Shown here: one piece after another, positions 4,939 to 37,400 of the stretch
Layout: every line of letters begins with the position of its first letter
How positions within the stretch are numbered: the first letter of the stretch is position 1
Assembly: GCA_030605125.1 (NCBI GenBank)
Contig: JAUWBD010000022.1
Coordinates: 1-39,514 of the forward strand
Direction: 5' to 3'
DNA length: 39,514 nucleotides
Source of the DNA: Verrucomicrobiota bacterium
Lineage (GTDB): Bacteria; Verrucomicrobiota; Verrucomicrobiia; Opitutales; Opitutaceae
Position numbers and translations under genes: made by a program
Notes under the pieces: model-generated
The model's input: only the letters and a program-made list of their open reading frames with translations
What the model was told of the DNA's origin: nothing
The model's database searches: none

Positions 4939-4947
4939 AAATCATCG

Positions 4948-5032
4948 ACCACGGATCACACGGATCTTCACGGATAAAAGCCACCGCTCCGAAGCTTGGT
5001 CCGTATCCGTGTTTATCCGTGCCATCCGTGGT
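4948..5032. repeat. Inverted 7-nt-word element (CACGGAT type), full hairpin
   Basis: Left arm 4948-4976 is AC + CACGGAT, 2 nt, CACGGAT, 3 nt, CACGGAT. Right arm 5004-5032 is the reverse complement in the same 3-2 spacing. The two 29-nt arms match at 24 positions; all mismatches are in the spacers, so the words alone pair and the spacers form internal loops. The central loop is 27 nt. It begins 9 bp after the argC stop. Confidence 0.95.
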
Positions 5033-5059
5033 TAAGAATTTCTCCGCCTTCTCCACCTT

Positions 5060-13554: not shown

Positions 13555-14244
13555 ATGAGCTCGCCCGGCAAACATGGGAATGATGGGAAGCATGAGAATC
13601 ATGGGAGCGGCCGTCCGCCCTCCCATAACTCCCCTGCTTCCCATAACTCCCATCCCCCGAGCCGCACCGCCCCTTCTCGCCGCGCCCCCGAGCGCATCCT
13701 CCCGCCCCGCGGCGACTACCAGACCCTGCTCTCCTACCAGAAGGCCGAGGTGATCTACGACCTCACCCACCGCTTCGCCCACCGCTACCTCGAGCGCGGC
13801 GACCGCACCATCGACCAGATGATCCAGTCGGCGCGCTCCGGGAAGCAAAACATCCTCGAGGGCAGCAAGGCCGCCCAGACCTCCAAGGAGACCGAGATCA
13901 AGCTCACCAACGTCGCCCGCGCCAGCCTCGAGGAACTGCTCGCCGACTACCGCGACTACCTCCGCGTCCGCGACCTCCCCATCTGGGAAAAAGACTCCAA
14001 GGAGGCCCTCTTCATCCGCCGCCTCGGCCGCCGCACGCCGCATACCTTTGAGCTCTACCGCGAGTTTTTCGAGACGCGCCCGCCCGAGGTGATCGCCAAC
14101 ATCGCTATCTGCCTGATTCACCAGACGAACTACCTGCTCGACCAACAGCTCCGCAGCCTCGAGCAGGCCTTTACCCAGGGAGGCGGCCTCCGCGAGCGCA
14201 TGACCCGCGCCCGCCTCGCCCACCGCGCCCGCCCCACCCCATGA
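13555..14244 (+). CDS. Four-helix-bundle suffix-domain protein
   Basis: 229 residues. From about residue 53 it matches the four-helix bundle family related to the 'S23' intervening-sequence proteins: LLSYQKAEVIYDLTHRFAHRYL, TIDQMIQSARSGKQNILEGSKAA, EIKLTNVARASLEELLADYRDYL, then a suffix region with IANIAICLIHQTNYLLDQQL. The function of the family is unknown. The first ~35 codons consist largely of a 7-nt-word inverted repeat (13574-13653), producing low-complexity HGNDGKHENHG and SHNSPASHNS. No ATG or GTG lies between this segment and the conserved domain, so translation through the repeat is likely. The 3' end overlaps the next gene by 4 bp (ATGA). Confidence 0.8.
   Translation: MSSPGKHGNDGKHENHGSGRPPSHNSPASHNSHPPSRTAPSRRAPERILPPRGDYQTLLSYQKAEVIYDLTHRFAHRYLERGDRTIDQMIQSARSGKQNILEGSKAAQTSKETEIKLTNVARASLEELLADYRDYLRVRDLPIWEKDSKEALFIRRLGRRTPHTFELYREFFETRPPEVIANIAICLIHQTNYLLDQQLRSLEQAFTQGGGLRERMTRARLAHRARPTP
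13574..13653. repeat. Inverted 7-nt-word element (ATGGGAA type) inside a coding region
   Basis: Left arm 13574-13607 is four copies of ATGGGAA-like words with 2-nt spacers; right arm 13620-13653 is the reverse complement pattern (28 of 34 positions match). The loop is 12 nt. It occupies codons ~7-33 of the four-helix-bundle gene. Confidence 0.93.
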
Positions 14245-22466: not shown

Positions 22467-23321
22467 TCAGACTTGTAGGTGTTGCTTCACTACGTCGTCG
22501 GTGAGGTCGGAGATGGGGCCGCTGATGGTGACGGCGCCGCGGTCCATGGCGTAAAAGCGGTCGGCGATGGCGCGGCAGAAATCGACGTATTGCTCGACGA
22601 GCAGGATGGAGAGGCCGCTGCGGGTGCGGCGGAGGGTCTTGATGGCGCCGGTGATCTGCTCGGTGTCGCGATGCGCCTCGTCGATCGCGGCGGAGACGGG
22701 CGGCGATTTGAGTTTTTTGAGGGTGTCGCCGATCTCCTCGATGATGCTGGGCTGGATGCCTTCGGTAGGCTCGTCGAGGAGGAGGAGTTTCGGCTGCGTG
22801 AGCAGGGCGCGGCCGATGGCGAGCTGTTGCTGCTGCCCACCGGAGAGCACGCCGCCTTTGCGGGCGACGAACTGTTTGAGGATGGGGAAGAGCGTATAAA
22901 CCTCCTCGAGGGCGGAGCGGGCGGCGGCGCCCTTGATGCCGTGGGTGACGAGGCTGATGCGGAGGTTCTCCTCGACGGTGAGGTGCGGGAAAATCTCGCG
23001 GCCCTGGGGCACGTAGCCGAGGCCGGCGCGGGCGCGCGCGGCGGTGTCGAGCTTGGTGAGGTCGGTGCCGGCGAGAGTCATGACGCCGGAGCGCAGCGGG
23101 CGCAGGCCCATGAGGGCGCGGAGCGTGGTGGTCTTGCCCACGCCATTGCGGCCCATGAGAGCGACCAGCTCGCCGGGGCGGACCTCGAGCGTGACGCCGC
23201 GGAGGATGCGGGAGCCGTCGATGTCCACTTCGGCGGCGGAGACGGTGAGGAGGACGTCGGAGGGCCGAGGAGTCGAGAAGTCGAGGGGCCGAGGAGCGGC
23301 GGATTGCGGGGGCTGTGGCAT
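22467..23321 (-). CDS. urtE: Urea ABC transporter ATP-binding subunit UrtE
   Basis: 284 residues versus ~230-240 for usual UrtE. ABC motifs: Walker A GRNGVGKTT (58-66), Q-loop YVPQGREIFPHLTVEENL, signature LSGGQQQQLAIGRAL (159-173), Walker B LLLLDEPTEGIQPSII (179-194). Two length differences stand out. First, residues ~11-22 (RPLDFSTPRPSD) are encoded by one arm of a 7-nt-word repeat just after the ATG. Second, about 26 residues (206-231; SPPVSAAIDEAHRDT onward) are inserted between the D-loop helix and LVEQYVDF. The rest matches UrtE/LivF proteins that power high-affinity urea import with UrtD. It lies 61 bp downstream of urtD and 61 bp upstream of uca. Confidence 0.9.
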   Translation of the reverse strand: MPQPPQSAAPRPLDFSTPRPSDVLLTVSAAEVDIDGSRILRGVTLEVRPGELVALMGRNGVGKTTTLRALMGLRPLRSGVMTLAGTDLTKLDTAARARAGLGYVPQGREIFPHLTVEENLRISLVTHGIKGAAARSALEEVYTLFPILKQFVARKGGVLSGGQQQQLAIGRALLTQPKLLLLDEPTEGIQPSIIEEIGDTLKKLKSPPVSAAIDEAHRDTEQITGAIKTLRRTRSGLSILLVEQYVDFCRAIADRFYAMDRGAVTISGPISDLTDDVVKQHLQV

Positions 23322-23375
23322 GGGCGACGTGCGGGTATGTGACTTCTCGGCTCCTCGGCTTTTCGGCTCCTCGGC
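23264..23375. repeat. Inverted 7-nt-word element (CGAGGAG type) across the urtE start
   Basis: Arms 23264-23296 and 23343-23375, each 33 nt, made of four 7-nt words with 1-nt spacers. They match at 28 of 33 positions, and all five differences are transitions that would be G-U pairs in a plus-sense RNA. The urtE ATG (23319-23321) lies in the 46-nt loop, so one arm is translated as the UrtE N-terminus and the other lies in the leader. Confidence 0.93.
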
Positions 23376-23382
23376 TCTGCGC

Positions 23383-24153
23383 TCAGTGCTTTCCGCGGCC
23401 GAGATAGACGGCGCGGACTTGGGGATTGGATTGGACCTCGTCGAATTTTCCCTCGCAGAGCACGGTGCCCTGGTGGAGGACGGTCACCTGGCCGCCGTCG
23501 GAGATCTGCTTCACGAAGGTCATGTCGTGCTCGACGACGACGATGCTGTGCTTGCCGCGCAGGCTGAGGAGCAGCTCGCCGGTGCGGTGCGTCTCCTCGT
23601 CGGTCATGCCGGCGGCGGGTTCGTCCACGAGGAGCACGCGCGGCTCGGAGGCGAGGAGCATGCCGATCTCAAGCCACTGTTTCTCGCCGTGGGAGAGGAG
23701 GCCGGCCTTCCAGTGGCGCTTGTCCTCGAGGCGCACGAGCTTGAGCAGGGCGTCGAGGCGGTCGCGTTGGGTGGAGTCGAGCCGGTGGAAGAGCGAGGCG
23801 AAGACGCCGCGCGGGCCCTTGAGCGAGAGGACGAGGTTGGTGTGGACGCTGTGCTCGGCGAAGACGGAGGGCGTCTGGAACTTGCGGCCGATGCCGAGGC
23901 GCTGGATCTCGTATTCGTTGAGTTCGGTGAGATCGATCGCGGGCGCGGCGTCGGAGTCGGCGTATTTGATCGAGCCGGTGTCGGGCTGGGCGCGGCCGGT
24001 GAGGAGGTCGAAGAAGGTGGATTTGCCCGCGCCGTTGGGGCCGATGACGGTGCGCAGTTCGCCGGGGAAGAGGTAGAAGTTGAGGGCGTTGATGGCGCGG
24101 AAACCATCGTAGGTCTTGGAGACGTCCTCGGCTTGCAGAATGGGATGGGCCAT
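23383..24153 (-). CDS. urtD: Urea ABC transporter ATP-binding subunit UrtD
   Basis: 256 residues, typical length. Motifs: Walker A GPNGAGKSTFFDLLTG (~38-53), Q-loop region GIGRKFQTPSVF, the UrtD-type signature LSHGEKQWLEIGMLL instead of LSGGQ, Walker B VLLVDEPAAGMTDEE, and the H-loop VVVEHDMTFV. LSHGEKQWLEI is the feature that separates UrtD from general LivG. It couples ATP hydrolysis to urea import with UrtE, UrtB and UrtC. It starts 13 bp after urtC, consistent with one transcript. Confidence 0.95.
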   Translation of the reverse strand: MAHPILQAEDVSKTYDGFRAINALNFYLFPGELRTVIGPNGAGKSTFFDLLTGRAQPDTGSIKYADSDAAPAIDLTELNEYEIQRLGIGRKFQTPSVFAEHSVHTNLVLSLKGPRGVFASLFHRLDSTQRDRLDALLKLVRLEDKRHWKAGLLSHGEKQWLEIGMLLASEPRVLLVDEPAAGMTDEETHRTGELLLSLRGKHSIVVVEHDMTFVKQISDGGQVTVLHQGTVLCEGKFDEVQSNPQVRAVYLGRGKH

Positions 24154-30690: not shown

Positions 30691-31176
30691 ATGCGCTGCC
30701 CGAAGTGCACCTCCATCGAAGACAAAGTCATCGACTCCCGCATCAGCCGCGAGGGTAACAGCATCCGCCGCCGCCGCGAGTGCCTCGAATGCGGCCACCG
30801 CTTCACCACCACGGAGGTCCTGGTGCGCGAGGGCGTCTACGTGCTCAAGCACGACGGACGCCGCGAGGAGTTCGACCGCGAGAAGCTCGTCCGCTCGGTG
30901 CGCGCCGCCTGCCACAAGCGCCCGATCGACGCCGAGCGCATCAGCATGCTGGTGGACGACGTGATGGACATCCTCGAGGCGCGCCACGAAAGCGAGATCC
31001 CGAGCAGCGCGATCGGCGAAGGCGTGATGGAGCAGCTCCGCAAGATAGATCACGTCGCCTACGTGCGCTTCGCCAGCGTCTATAAGGAATTCCGCGACGT
31101 CTCCGAGTTTGTCTCGGAGATCAAGGACCTCGGGAAAGAATCCGGAGGCTCCGCCGGAACCACTAATGCTCACTAA
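30691..31176 (+). CDS. nrdR: Transcriptional repressor NrdR
   Basis: 161 residues. The zinc ribbon is C3-x2-C6 (MRCPKCTSIEDKVIDSR) with C31/C34-type pair in RRECLECGHRFTT, followed by an ATP-cone (VLKHDGRREEFDREKLVRSVRAACHKRPI, SSAIGEGVMEQLRKIDHVAYVRFASVYKEF). It binds NrdR boxes and represses ribonucleotide reductase genes in response to ATP/dATP. The conserved part ends at DLGKE; the last residues GTTNAH and the TAA stop come from a repeat arm beginning at 31159. No nrd genes lie in this window. Confidence 0.95.
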   Translation: MRCPKCTSIEDKVIDSRISREGNSIRRRRECLECGHRFTTTEVLVREGVYVLKHDGRREEFDREKLVRSVRAACHKRPIDAERISMLVDDVMDILEARHESEIPSSAIGEGVMEQLRKIDHVAYVRFASVYKEFRDVSEFVSEIKDLGKESGGSAGTTNAH

Positions 31177-31242
31177 TGGGACACTAATCCCAAGCCACCT
31201 CCGGTAGCCTGACATTAGTGACCATAAGTGCCCATTAGTGGT
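31159..31242. repeat. Inverted 7-nt-word element (CACTAAT type) at the nrdR 3' end
   Basis: Left arm 31159-31188 is AC + three CACTAAT words with 3-nt steps (spacers GCT and GGGA, allowing one base of slack); right arm 31214-31242 is ATTAGTG, ATAAGTG, ATTAGTG with 3-nt spacers, ending GGT. The arms flank a 25-nt loop. The TAA stop of nrdR (31174-31176) is inside the second word, and the next gene starts 6 bp after the right arm. Confidence 0.92.
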
Positions 31243-32241: not shown

Positions 32242-34338
32242 ATGCCGACTCCTGCTCCGAAACGCACCGCTTACCGCACCCTCGGTGCCGCCCTGCTTCT
32301 CGCGGCAAGTCCGCCCCTTCCGGCTCAGACCGACTGGCGCGCCGAGGTCGGCTACACGAGACTCCTCCAAACGTTTGTCACCGGAGTGCCCACCGCCGCC
32401 TCGCCGGGCCTCGCCCAAATCGAGGCGATCGACATCAACGGCAACTACGCACCCAACGCCGGCGACAGCCGCTTCACCGGCAAAAGCTTCACGCTCCTCA
32501 GCGGCACCTCGGCGGCCTCCGGCCACGCCACCTTTGTCGGCGCCTTTATCTACGGCTCCACCAGCAGCTTGGTGCCAGCCACCACCGCGGTGGACATCTA
32601 CTCAGCATCAAATGCCGCCGGAACCGGCTGGATCAACCGTGCGCCCTACACCGACACCCGACTTGTCCAGAATCATAGCTGGGTTGCACGGGCCAATAAC
32701 TTTCCCGTCGGCGCCAACCTCAACCAGGAAGCGTTGGCGGCCAACCTGCGCGTCGATGTCATGGCCAACCAAGGTTCGATCATCGTCGCCGGCATGGACA
32801 ACGAGGCCGCGTCGTCACTTCCGGTTTGGCTTACCCAGGGCTATAACCTGATCAGCGTGGGTCGCAGCGATGGCGCGCATAGCGCAGGCACCACGATCTA
32901 TGACGGCGCGGGTCGCATCAAACCCGACATCGTCTCCTTCGAAACCACGACCAGCGGCGCCACCGGGCAGGTCTCCTCCGCCGCGGCCCTGCTCGCGCAG
33001 CGACTCACCGACGCTCCCTTTTCCCGATCGGACGCCGACCTTCCTCGAATCACCAAAGCCCTCCTCCTCGCCGGTGCCACGAAGGAAAAATTCCCTTCGT
33101 GGACACGCAGCTCCACCCAGCCGCTCGATCTCCGCTACGGCGCGGGCGAGCTGAACGTCCTGCTTGCCTACCGCACCCTTCTCGGCGGCCCCGTGGCGCC
33201 ATCGAACTCCGTCACCGCGCCCAACACCGCCTGGGCTCACGCCCAAATCCAGTTCAACACCCAGGAGAGGAACCGCACCTATTTCTTCGACGTGCCGGCA
33301 GGGTCCACCCACACGCGCTTTTCCGCCGCCCTCGTCTGGCACCGCCCGGCCACCTTCGCGAACGGCTCCTTCAGCTACAGCCCGCCAACCAATCTGAGCC
33401 TCACGCTCCTCACCGCGACCAACTTCACGACTGGCTCGGTGGTCACCGACGGCACGAGCAACAGCGCGGCCGATAACGTCGAGCACATCTATCTGCCTTC
33501 CCTGCCCCCCGGGCGCTACGCTCTCCAGGTCTCCACCGCGGCCTTCTCCTCCGCCACCGACTACGCCCTCGCCTGGCGCACCAGCCCCACCGTCACCGTC
33601 GCCGCCACCGTCGCCTCGACATCCGAAAGCAACCCCTCCTCGCCGGCGGTTTTCACCCTGACCCGCACCGGCCCCACCACCTCTCCCCTCTTCGTGCCGC
33701 TCGCCTGGGGCGGGACCGCCGTATCCGGAACCCACTACAGCACGCCACCCGCCGGCCTGCTCATTCCCGCGGGCAGCGCCTCCGCGACCGTGAGCATCAC
33801 GCCCGTCGCCGACTCGCTCGCCCAGGGCGACCGCAGTGTCACGCTCTCCGTCGCCACCGATTTCTCACTCTCCGCCGGCACGCCCTCGGCCGCCTCCGCG
33901 ACGATCCACGACAAGCCCTACGACGCCTGGCGCCATGCCCGCTTCTCCTCCGCCCAGCTCGCCGACCCCGCCGTGTCCGGCGACTCGGCCGACCCCGACG
34001 GCGACGGGCTCGCCAACCTGCTCGAATACGCCTTCGCCGGCGAACCGCTCACGCCCGCTTCCGTGCCCGCCGAGCGCCTGCCCGCCGTCGGCCTCGCCGA
34101 GGACGGTCGTCTCACCCTGACCTATTTCCACGCCGCCGACCGGCCCGATCTCGCGCACGCCGTCGAGTGGACCGACGACCTCGCCGCCGGCCCCGCCGGC
34201 TGGCAGACGGGCACGGGCGTGGTCACCGAGATCACGCGCGCGCCGGTCGAGGGCGGCGAACTCGTCACCGTGCGCGCCGACGCCACGCCGGCCGCGGCGC
34301 CGCGGCAGTTCCTTCGTCTGCGCGTGACGCGGCTGTGA
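32242..34338 (+). CDS. Secreted subtilase-like (S8) protease with Calx-beta and Verrucomicrobial C-terminal module
   Basis: 698 residues from ATG 32242 (an upstream TTG is in frame but the signal peptide, ending near LPLPA-QTDW, starts here). The catalytic part is diverged but traceable: Asp in EAIDINGNY, His in ASGHATFVGAFIYG (S8 HATHVAG pattern), oxyanion Asn in VQNHSWVAR, and Ser in KPDIVSFETTTSGATGQVSSAAALLAQ, aligned with GTSMAT. A jelly-roll-like region follows (~370-450), then a Calx-beta repeat (SNPSSPAVFTLTRTGPTTSP, GTHYSTPPAGLLIPAGSASAT). The C-terminus (DPDGDGLANLLEYAF to FLRLRV) is a module common on Verrucomicrobial secreted proteins. Probable extracellular or surface protease; activity is uncertain because flanking motif residues differ. 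Confidence 0.7.
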   Translation: MPTPAPKRTAYRTLGAALLLAASPPLPAQTDWRAEVGYTRLLQTFVTGVPTAASPGLAQIEAIDINGNYAPNAGDSRFTGKSFTLLSGTSAASGHATFVGAFIYGSTSSLVPATTAVDIYSASNAAGTGWINRAPYTDTRLVQNHSWVARANNFPVGANLNQEALAANLRVDVMANQGSIIVAGMDNEAASSLPVWLTQGYNLISVGRSDGAHSAGTTIYDGAGRIKPDIVSFETTTSGATGQVSSAAALLAQRLTDAPFSRSDADLPRITKALLLAGATKEKFPSWTRSSTQPLDLRYGAGELNVLLAYRTLLGGPVAPSNSVTAPNTAWAHAQIQFNTQERNRTYFFDVPAGSTHTRFSAALVWHRPATFANGSFSYSPPTNLSLTLLTATNFTTGSVVTDGTSNSAADNVEHIYLPSLPPGRYALQVSTAAFSSATDYALAWRTSPTVTVAATVASTSESNPSSPAVFTLTRTGPTTSPLFVPLAWGGTAVSGTHYSTPPAGLLIPAGSASATVSITPVADSLAQGDRSVTLSVATDFSLSAGTPSAASATIHDKPYDAWRHARFSSAQLADPAVSGDSADPDGDGLANLLEYAFAGEPLTPASVPAERLPAVGLAEDGRLTLTYFHAADRPDLAHAVEWTDDLAAGPAGWQTGTGVVTEITRAPVEGGELVTVRADATPAAAPRQFLRLRVTRL

Positions 34339-34339
34339 C

Positions 34340-34434
34340 TTTTGGAGGGACGCCGTCCCCGGCGTCCGCGAAGGCGTCTCGGGCAAGGAAACCCAATAGA
34401 CTCCGCGGACGGCGAGGACGCCGTCCCTCCAAAA
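34340..34434. repeat. Long inverted repeat between convergent genes
   Basis: 31-nt arms at 34340-34370 and 34404-34434 match at 28 positions, with a 33-nt loop. Arms start TTTTGGAGGGACG. It begins 2 bp after the protease stop and ends 10 bp before the stop of the convergent carboxykinase gene. No T-run follows the stem on either strand, so it is a repeat element that may block read-through, not a standard terminator. Confidence 0.92.
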
Positions 34435-34444
34435 AACACACCGC

Positions 34445-37400
34445 CTACACGCGGTGGGCGTGGGCGATGTCGCGCGCCACGGCAGGCTCGCCGCCGAGCG
34501 TGCCGCGCAGCGCCTCGGCGTAGGCCGGGGCCTTGGCGGCCTTGGCCTGGGCGGAGACGCGGTCGAGGCGGCCCTGGATATCGAGCCGCACCGCGATGTC
34601 GCTGTAGTTGGCCCGACGCAGGAACTTTTCCAGGTAGCGCGCATGCGCCTCCCAGGTGGAGGCGTCGATCACGCGCTTGGCCTCGAGGCGTGCCTTATAC
34701 CAGTCGCTCTTCAACATCTCGGCGCGGTCGAAGAGGCGGCGCACCTCGGGCGAATCGAGGCCCTTCCCCTCCCACTGGCCGTCGCGCATGATGTGGAGCA
34801 GCGCGCGCAGCGGCGGGCAGGCGTGCTCGACCGAACCGTCGGCGAAGTAGTGCTCGGCGGCCTCCTTCATCGCGGTGACGATGTTCTCCATGCCGTCGGC
34901 GAAGATGCCAAGGTCGGTGAGCTCGGGGCGCAGGTGCTCCTCGGCGAAGACCGTCGAGGGGTTGCTCATCACGCGGCCGAAGAAGGCCTGCACAAAGCGC
35001 TCGGTGATGCGCCAGCCGAGGCGCGAGGCGAGGACCGGCTTGCCCTCGTGGGTGAAGTCTTTGCAGCGCTCGAGGAAGCCGTGCTCGATGAGATACTTCG
35101 GCGTGCGCTCCTCGGCCGTCATGCGGCACCAGAGCTCGGGCACGAGCAGCGAGATGTCGTGGTCCACGCGCAGCTTCGGGCCCACCCAGCCGGCCGCGGT
35201 GGAGAAGGCGGGCAGGTCGGTGAGCAGGAAGGAGACGAGCGCGGCGTTGAGATCGTAGATCGGCGGCAGCGCGTTGAAGGGGCCCTTCGTGAGCGCGCCC
35301 TCGGAGCCGGCGCCGGTGGTCGAGGGCGACTTGCCGGTGAGCGAGGCGATGAGGTCCATGAAGGCCTCGGGCAGCTCCTGGTAGTGGATGGGGTTGAAGA
35401 CGCAGAGCGGGCGCACGCCCTTCTCGGGCGGGTTGAGGCGGCGGCCCATGAGCACGGCGCCGACCGGGAAGACCACGGGCGCCTCGGCGTCGAGGCCGCG
35501 GTGCAGGCGCGCGCCGATGCGGGCGAGCGCGGTGGCGCGGGGATCGAGCAGGTCGGGGCGGATCTGGAGGTAGCGCGGGTTCTTGGTCGGCTTGCCGTCC
35601 ACGATGCGCGGATGCGAGGGGAGGACGATGTATCCGGCCTTTGGATTCGCGGCGAAGTCGCGCACCATGTCCTTGATCGGGGCGGTGTAGGCGTCGAAGC
35701 CGAGGGTGTCGTCGAGGAGGTCGGCGGCGGCGGAGTGCGGGAGCGGCTCGTAGTTGGAGAAGAAGTTGCGCGGGCCGCTGAAGTCCTTCTCGGCGTGCTT
35801 GTCGTAGCCGCGCACGATGGCGTCGTCGGGGCGCTGGAAGAGGCGCGTCTCGCAGTTGTGGATGATCTTCACCGCGGAGTCGGCGGGCGTGCCGGCGGGC
35901 AGGCCTAGGACGGCGGAGGCGGGGGCGACGGCGGAGGCGGTGATGTCGTCCTCGGCCTGGATCTTCACCGCGGGCAGGAAGTCGCCGCGGAGGGTGAAGG
36001 TGCGCCAGCCGCCGTCCTTCGAGTAGCCGACGCGAAGGAACTGCTTGGTGGCGCGGGCGCCGTGGTATTTGAGCTCGTTGCCCGGGCGGCCGTTGATCGT
36101 ATCCACCGAGAAGTGGGCGCGCCAGTCGTCGCCGTGCTCGGGCTTGTGGACGCGTTTCACGAGGAGCACGAGGTCGCGGATGTGGCGCGGGATGGAGTCG
36201 AGCCAGGCGTTATACTCGTCGGTGTAGTCGGGGCTGCGGGAGAGCAGCTTGACGACGGAGCCGAGGGAGCGCTTGGGCGAGAGGATGGGGCGGCCGGCGC
36301 CGGGGGCCTTGTTGCGCGCGGCGTCCTTGTAGCGCACGGCGTAGTCGCGCTTCAGGATCGATTCGACGAGGTCGAGGTCCTTCACGGCGTCGGCGATGAA
36401 GACGGGGCCGGAGAAGGTGGCGTCGGCGATGGACTTGGAGATCTCGGACTTGCCGCCGCCGGAGACGGTGCAGGGCTTGTGGCAGAGCAGGCCCTCGGCG
36501 GTGGTGCCGCGCAGGCGCCAGCGCGAGGCGGGGTCGGGCCGCACCATCTCGACCTTATAGCCGGAGGGCAGGACGTAGGTGATGCCGGGGAGAAGCTTGA
36601 GCGTGTGCGCGGGCGCCTCCGCCGGGCCCCAGGAGACGCGCTGGGCGCGGAGGTCGAAGCGGGCGTCGCCGGGGACGTAGTGGATATCCGGATACTCGGC
36701 GTCGCGGGCCCAGCCGCCGGGCTGCGGGATGGCGCGGGCGGCGAGGAGCTTGAGGGCGCGATCGAAGGCGCCGGCCTCCTCGGGGAACCGGGAGGCGAGG
36801 CTGAACTGCTCGCCGAGGTCGTAGCTGGGGAAGGCGAGGGCGCCGCCGGCGTGCTCCTCCTCGGCGAGGCCGAGCAGGTTGGCCGAGAGGGAGATCTGGG
36901 TCTTCACCTCCTTCTTGCAGTAGCCGAAGTAGTTGTCGGAGATCACCGTGACCACGACGCCCGAGGCGTCGCGCGAGGTGCACTTGAAGGCGACGCCGTC
37001 GTTGTAGGGCTCGTCGGGCGATTTCCAGCACATGCCGTCGCGGCGCTGGCGCTCGGTGGCGTCCGCCCAGGAGGGCAGGCCGAGGTCTTTCTTGAGGAGG
37101 CCGTTCAGGTGCGGGGCGAGGATGATGCAGCCGGTGTGGCCGGTCCAGGTCTCGGGATCGAGGGCGGCGTCGTTGACCGGCAGGCCGGGGTCGCCGGCGT
37201 TGCCGAAGATGCTTTCGACGAAGTCGAGGTTGGCGACGAGCGCGCCGGGGATGAAGAAACGCGTCTCCATGCGGCGGGCGGGGGTGAAGCCGGGCACGGC
37301 CGGCACCACGACCGGGCGCAGGTAGAGCGAGACGAAGGTCTTGGCCGCGGCGGGCGAGGCGGCGGTGAAGGGCAGGGAGAGCAGGTCGTCGGGCGGGTTG

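Follow-up and report, generated by a model that had tools for sequence, protein, structure and literature searches.

A probable copy of a dispersed word-armed element holds the start codon of urtE in an Opitutaceae genome

The start codon of urtE, a gene for urea transport, in a bacterium of the family Opitutaceae lies between the arms of an inverted repeat. The feature is probably a copy of a small dispersed element, which entered the gap between urtD and urtE in a set orientation and whose 3' arm took over the start of the gene; the origin of the element would be IVS-like. The analysis is centred on a window, the whole stretch of 39,514 nucleotides that was analysed (assembly GCA_030605125.1, contig JAUWBD010000022.1). 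The genome is called G000, its sister species G013, and the other genus mates G002, G004, G005, G006, G007, G010, G011 and G014.

The inverted repeat between urtD and urtE

Of the 33 positions of the two arms, 28 are paired. When the window is shuffled 40 times with its dinucleotides preserved, the best 33-nt arms with spacers of 3–80 nt reach 22–25 of 33, and the 33-nt inverted arms that the initial annotation had described around the urtE ATG are real. Ungapped extension of the repeat results in 39-nt arms with 82% pairing. The arms are built from repeated words, as had been proposed; however, the unit is 8 nt long rather than 7 nt, with four words in each arm. An origin of the repeat by chance within GC-rich coding sequence, in favour of which there is only the high GC content, is virtually impossible, because it is refuted by the shuffles, by the existence of further copies, and by the z-scores of the predicted folds.

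The window contains at least three further word-armed inverted repeats, each with different words (Table 1). It is another repeat, at 34341, that pairs best among the 33-nt inverted repeats of the window (29 of 33 positions). The longest inverted repeat of the window, at 34321–34453, has 53-nt arms (GGAGGGACGCCGTCC), is positioned at a convergent junction, and is of a different type. A search of the window against Rfam at the gathering threshold identified no family.

Table 1 Features of the urtD-urtE junction and related features of the window
Feature	Position	Strand	Description
urtE	22467..23321	-	TIGR03410 292.4 bits (cut-off 285.8), profile from residue 25
urtD	23383..24153	-	TIGR03411 331.8 bits (cut-off 304.1)
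5' arm in urtE sense	23343..23375	-	purine-rich, words CCGAGGAG CCGAAAAG CCGAGGAG CCGAGAAG; 8 nt into the gap from the urtD side
Spacer, 46 nt	23297..23342	-	AATCCGCC in its 3' part, common to the spacers of other copies in the same orientation
3' arm in urtE sense	23264..23296	-	pyrimidine-rich; in-frame translation is part of RPLDFSTPRP
urtE ATG	23319..23321	-	in the spacer; sole plausible start
Codon 20 of urtE (CCC)	23262..23264	-	place of the ATG of relatives (ATG YCY GAC GTC); alignment by eye
Word-armed inverted repeat, CACGGAT words	4939..5041	.	follows a stop codon immediately; genes on both sides codirectional
Word-armed inverted repeat, ATGGGAA words	13574..13653	.	within the 5' end of the four-helix-bundle ORF
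Word-armed inverted repeat, CACTAATG words	31159..31242	.	codirectional genes on both sides
ORF of a four-helix-bundle (suffix) protein	13555..14244		TIGR04258 82.4 and TIGR02436 29, both above cut-off; PF05635 25, below cut-off

The new N-terminus of UrtE

The urtE genes of relatives open with ATG YCY GAC, and the corresponding sequence in G000 is CCC TCC GAC, positioned directly after the 3' arm. The stretch from the 3' arm to the conserved core of UrtE does not contain an in-frame ATG, GTG, or TTG. The protein from G000 has about 19 extra residues at its N-terminus. The 3' arm does not contain a stop codon in any frame and is translated in the frame of urtE, which bears out the proposal of the initial annotation that one of the arms encodes UrtE residues. 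The ancestral ATG of urtE has been replaced by the 3' arm, and the ATG of the spacer now opens the gene.

Seven genus mates have urtE-like matches with at least 80% identity, and five of the junctions were inspected, leaving out that of G014 and a fragment from G006. The junction is empty in G011, G004, and G007, in which 17, 17, and 10 nt, respectively, separate the stop codon from the ATG. The junctions of G005 and G002 are occupied by elements with CACGAAAA-like and CGCAAAGA words, respectively, with the ATG outside the element in both. Among farther relatives, inspection by eye indicated differing word repeats at some junctions, for example in L041, L043, L045, and L055, and no repeat at others (L044, L047–L049, L051, and L053). 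A structure conserved at the same gene, as expected of a cis-regulatory RNA, is not found in the relatives. The element entered the urtD-urtE gap in a lineage-specific manner; a target-site duplication is not readable at this divergence. Relatives with the same operon and an unchanged N-terminus of UrtE, in which the element is missing, had been named in advance as evidence against a regulatory role. Three of the five inspected relatives lack the element, but the N-terminus differs.

A dispersed family in one orientation

The junction sequence matches 26 places in its own genome. Stretches around such places, totalling 339 kb, were combined with the window into a sample of 378 kb, and because the sample was drawn around the matches, the densities within it are not genome-wide values. 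The sample contains at least 14 paired elements, 13 of which were identified by word search and one, L162, by an inverted-repeat scan, and solo arms occur besides them. The arms consist of approximately four words, most commonly TCGAGGAG and CCGAGGAG, are conserved among the copies within G000, and enclose spacers of 26–113 nt. Some arms with the same words are present in the sister species. The 378-kb sample contains 36 scored arms, as opposed to none in 400 kb of G010 and none in 400 kb of G011. These two samples constitute the usable control, whereas counts obtained with backward patterns (52 and 24 in G000) and with the reversed sequence (29) are unusable, because reading a tandem word in reverse results in a shifted version of it, so that the same arms were matched.

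Gaps that hold arms make up 22 of 194 codirectional gaps, none of 25 convergent gaps, and none of 25 divergent gaps, as classified with a home-made gene finder. The names given here to genes without a family search are based on the reading of their translations. Nine of the 13 paired copies lie wholly within a gap, with the downstream ATG outside the element, and one is inside an ORF. Each of the remaining three extends into the end of a gene where two codirectional genes meet: the start of urtE, the 3' end of an S23 gene, and the 3' end of a pyrG-like gene. Twelve of the 36 scored arms do not belong to any listed pair. Among the ten unpaired arms located between codirectional genes, nine are pyrimidine-rich in the sense direction and one (L158:4150) is purine-rich.

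An inverted repeat is nearly identical when read in either direction, and therefore its orientation is visible only in its imperfections. The motif CCAA?G precedes the 3' arm in the sense direction in seven of 14 spacers and in none in antisense (mean 0.56 and maximum 3 in 200 shuffles), and ATCCGCC occurs in sense in five of 14 spacers and in none in antisense (mean 0.30, maximum 2). One pair of spacers is homologous over 42 nt, a match equalled in none of 1000 shuffles. Apart from this pair, the spacers are mostly dissimilar: the best score does not exceed that of shuffled spacers (57 of 200 as good), and the mean score does (0 of 200). All copies share one orientation relative to transcription.

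Folding and polarity of the arm mismatches

The initial annotation suggested that the start codon is positioned in the loop of a transcript hairpin, the folding of which could set the initiation of urtE relative to urtD. The predicted structure agrees with this geometry, because the ATG is located within the 46-nt spacer. The minus-strand RNA, which is the sense of the urtE mRNA, folds with an energy of -53.1 kcal/mol (z-score -5.5) and has the ATG in its apical region, and the element is in frame and stop-free. The plus-strand RNA folds with -91.3 kcal/mol (z-score -10.3).

The five arm mismatches at the urtD-urtE junction are all G·T on the plus strand, which is antisense to urtE. Since urtE is encoded by the minus strand, they are A·C in its mRNA. 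The observation that the mismatches are compatible with G-U pairing only in the RNA opposite to the mRNA is correct here and holds for the whole family. In the sense of the genes, the mismatches of the 13 copies comprise 45 A·C, 13 G·U, and 14 of other kinds, in addition to five gaps; A·C exceeds G·U in 12 of the copies, with one tie, and the genes are located on both contig strands. A count restricted to ungapped arms results in 46 A·C and 15 G·U. The A·C to G·U ratio is 19:18 in other word-armed repeats and 41:32 in non-word repeats, and in the 7-mer family of G013 it is 22:10 (10 copies, two of which are opposite and two tied). The base frequencies of the gaps in the sense direction (A 0.125, C 0.425, G 0.253, T 0.197) give A·C no advantage over G·U, and composition was rejected as a source of the bias.

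The sense fold is weaker than the antisense fold in 14 of 14 copies, by a mean of 16.4 kcal/mol. However, this also holds for 20 of 27 other repeats located in gaps and for 50 of 58 gaps that have no inverted repeat, and part of the effect is therefore a general property of such gaps. The longest uninterrupted sense helices are 8–17 bp long, and their mean length is below that expected for random polarity of the mismatches (P 0.001). Evasion of RNase III was considered as a cause of the A·C bias and is a weak explanation, because antisense helices of at least 20 bp are present in only one of 13 copies.

The mismatches are of the A·C kind in the transcript, so that folding of the mRNA has not been conserved, and its hairpin is a tolerated feature rather than a selected one. 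A start-codon switch at urtE is physically possible but finds no support in the comparison of relatives. Dependence of urtE initiation on folding is not supported, in view of the dispersal of the element, of genus mates with an empty junction or with other words, and of A·C mismatches where G·U would be expected if the mRNA fold had been selected. Many unrelated operons contain the same hairpin and have their ATG outside it, and the uniformly weaker sense fold also speaks against the regulatory reading, which is unlikely despite the favourable geometry. If anything, the element is expected to have reduced or altered the initiation of urtE rather than to form a conserved switch.

The sister species has other words in the same gaps

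A tree of 15 genus members places G000 beside G013 (100/99). Words of the GTCGAAG type, which are 7 nt long, occur in 92 places in G013 versus one in the control, and in 12 places in G000 versus four. Such words are present in 33 gaps of G013, 30 of which are codirectional. Six of the gaps have both flanks in the G000 sample, and all six are occupied in G000. Five of them (ctaD-ctaE, ctaE-ctaF, pyrG-kdsA, yidC-yebC, and pilB-pilT) contain an 8-mer element in G000 and a 7-mer element in G013, with the ctaD-ctaE arms of G000 being below the arm-score threshold yet listed as a pair by the word search; the sixth contains 7-mer elements in both genomes. The sample was built around 8-mer copies, and therefore the fair null is the occupancy of 22 of 194 gaps, for which the probability of five of six is about 1e-4. 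In nine other genus members the pilB-pilT gap measures 33–83 nt and does not contain these words.

The alignment of the ctaD-ctaE gaps suggested that the words of one ancestral element had been converted in place. This possibility has been rejected at least for yidC-yebC, because the G000 spacer there copies the spacer of L158 and differs from that of G013.

Word-armed genes of the S23 family

Three genes of the S23 (four-helix-bundle) family in the genus are bracketed by word arms. The S23 gene of L158 in G000 (PF05635 123 bits, TIGR02436 113.5) comes from the sample that was chosen for the arms and is located between an sdhA-like gene and the next, sdhB-like gene of the operon. A purine-rich arm precedes its ATG and a full pair of arms is positioned at the gene end; the outer arms are inverted, with a flank score of 56, and consist of the same 8-mer words as the element at urtE. 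The aligned flanks of L158 are only 63–157 nt apart in five of six relatives, without an S23 gene, and have no match in G013. The other two genes, L344 in G010 and L432 in G006, were found by similarity to that of L158 and are located between cysD-like and cysN-like genes inside 7-mer arms. The cysD-cysN gap of G000 holds a gene-less pair of 8-mer arms (L159). The flank scores of L344 and L432 are 35 and 37; however, four of 80 control genes from G010 also reach 35, so that these two genes stand out by their words and not by the score. The cysN-side (3') arms of L344 and L432 differ by two whole words, which indicates that arms change by units.

A search with the S23 profile over the 2.66 Mb of loci examined identified L158 and L344 only, and a scan of viral contigs for S23 returned none. 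Twenty-two plasmid records match S23, of which 19 were analysed and three apparent near-duplicates were left out. The flank score is at least 40 in 13 of the 19 plasmid S23 genes as opposed to five of 78 neighbouring control genes (Mann-Whitney P 2.5e-6), and three of these five controls directly adjoin an S23 gene and share its arm. The cases are not independent, because 17 of the 19 plasmids are cyanobacterial and several have words in common. The other six plasmid genes comprise three with weaker word-like arms (32–36) and three with none (18–20), and two of the latter are split ORFs. In 12 of 17 annotated plasmid cases, the S23 gene and both adjacent genes have the same direction. Three cyanobacterial plasmids, L417, L423, and L427, have a word-armed S23 gene inside a CRISPR operon, between cas6 and cas4 in two plasmids and between cas10 and cmr3 in the other.

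The element at urtE does not have an S23 ORF between its arms, whereas such an ORF is present in the elements of L158, L344, and L432. Repeats of this kind at loci other than urtE enclose a gene from a family of selfish elements that is already known, and this suggests an origin for the repeats. The four-helix-bundle ORF of the window (Table 1) is the site of a second in-window repeat at a gene start, and its 5' end reads through the whole inverted repeat of ATGGGAA words. An ORF6N-domain gene (L153:1026-1613) is located within the nuo operon in G000, G006, and G005 and is absent from the sister G013. It was rejected as element cargo, since its flank scores are 22–26 and the adjacent CGCTAAA repeat is also present in G013, without the gene. 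Searches of the open-licence PMC literature returned no paper connecting S23 genes to word arms and, when queried with the word strings, no paper on such repeats.

Comparison with known repeats

The nearest described repeats to the element of G000 are the heptameric GGGAATC and GGGGAYT intergenic repeats of Xanthomonas and Nostoc (PMC4692102). As described there, they form approximately four tandem units between aligned ORFs, with 70 inverted pairs in X. campestris, and are positioned in sense near the stop codon and on the antisense strand before the next ORF. In two species, most of them are found between the same pairs of genes, and their sequences vary. Their interpretation as quadruplexes is based on the G-tracts, and heptamer slippage has also been proposed (PMC4692102). 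The G000 element shares with them the number of units, the position between aligned ORFs, and the frequent inverted pairs. By contrast, its words are 8 nt long and lack a GGG tract, and its orientation, empty sites, and takeover of a start codon have been shown. The terms 'S23' and 'four helix' are absent from the main text of PMC4692102, and therefore the link to S23 is not made there.

Local slippage, by which words would have grown in place and the inverted arm would have arisen by fold-back copying without mobility, agrees with the whole-word difference between the cysN-side arms of G010 and G006 and with the proposal made for the heptamers. It is very improbable as an explanation of the G000 element, because the same words and related spacers are present at unrelated loci of G000 and hardly in genus mates, and relatives have empty sites.

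The IVS of the Coxiella 23S rRNA has terminal inverted repeats and an optional S23 ORF, and forms a stem-loop in the transcript that is excised by RNase III (PMC4990558). It has been called selfish, and its ORF has been proposed to act in mobility; the S23 protein is without known function according to the same source. The urtE element has similar terminal inverted repeats that form a stem; however, it is located between urtD and urtE instead of in 23S rRNA, its arms are made of tandem words, and it does not contain an ORF.

The element resembles REPINs (PMC3116915, PMC3733652), as these are described there, in its inverted doublets with a spacer, solo arms, and numerous intergenic copies; it differs from them in that it has no REP palindrome, no GTAG/CGTC tag in the words, and no bordering RAYT. 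A REPIN-like non-autonomous element mobilised by a REP-associated tyrosine transposase would account for the hairpin-forming doublets and singlets in the gaps, and Y1 transposases do occur. It is nevertheless quite unlikely, because the arms are tandem words rather than tagged palindromes, and word arms are absent from the flanks, of approximately 1–1.7 kb, of all eight Y1 transposase (Y1_Tnp) genes in G000 and G013. Several Y1 genes are flanked by classic GC-rich hairpins instead, for example C146 (AGGTGGCGCAGGCATTCC). The Y1 transposase gene at L165:11939-12701 of G000 has its own GC-rich hairpins (AGGTGGCGCAGGCATTCC) at the borders and forms a REP/RAYT-like unit.

Similar to MITEs (PMC10969869), the element is small and has inverted repeats; unlike in MITEs as described there, its arms are not conserved across related genomes, its spacers are variable, and neither a target duplication nor a transposase was identified. 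Host proteins contain Rickettsia palindromic elements (RPEs) as segments translated in frame, and Chunjie is located in an operon (PMC10969869).

Proposed origin of the urtE start

The reading of the urtE feature as a copy of a mobile element is probably correct and would involve the following steps. An element consisting of two inverted arms, each with four 8-nt words, and a variable spacer would have entered the urtD-urtE gap in the usual orientation of the family relative to transcription. Its 3' arm would have replaced the old start codon, so that the spacer ATG starts urtE and the arm is read through as the N-terminus. The A·C mismatches keep the uninterrupted helices of the mRNA short. 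The elements could be gene-less relatives of IVS-like elements that carry an S23 gene between their arms, with the gene-less copies descending from S23-bearing ones, and they may copy themselves between transcribed operon gaps by a transcription-oriented mechanism. The searches described above, including that of the Y1 gene flanks, did not yield a mobilising enzyme.

A wider and more tentative interpretation is that the word-armed hairpins in operon gaps of Verrucomicrobiota, Cyanobacteria, and others could belong to one mobile class, with S23-containing long forms, short forms from which the gene was lost, transcription-oriented insertion, and interchangeable words, which would explain why the gaps shared by sister species are occupied by different words. 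The 23S rRNA IVS might then be its rRNA-dwelling branch.

On the reading given here, the odd start codon of urtE exemplifies how the N-terminus of a housekeeping transport protein is rewritten by a selfish repeat. Should the link to S23 be true, short inverted word repeats that have so far been called quadruplex or slippage repeats would originate in IVS-like elements, and the S23 protein would gain a testable role in the spread of repeats.
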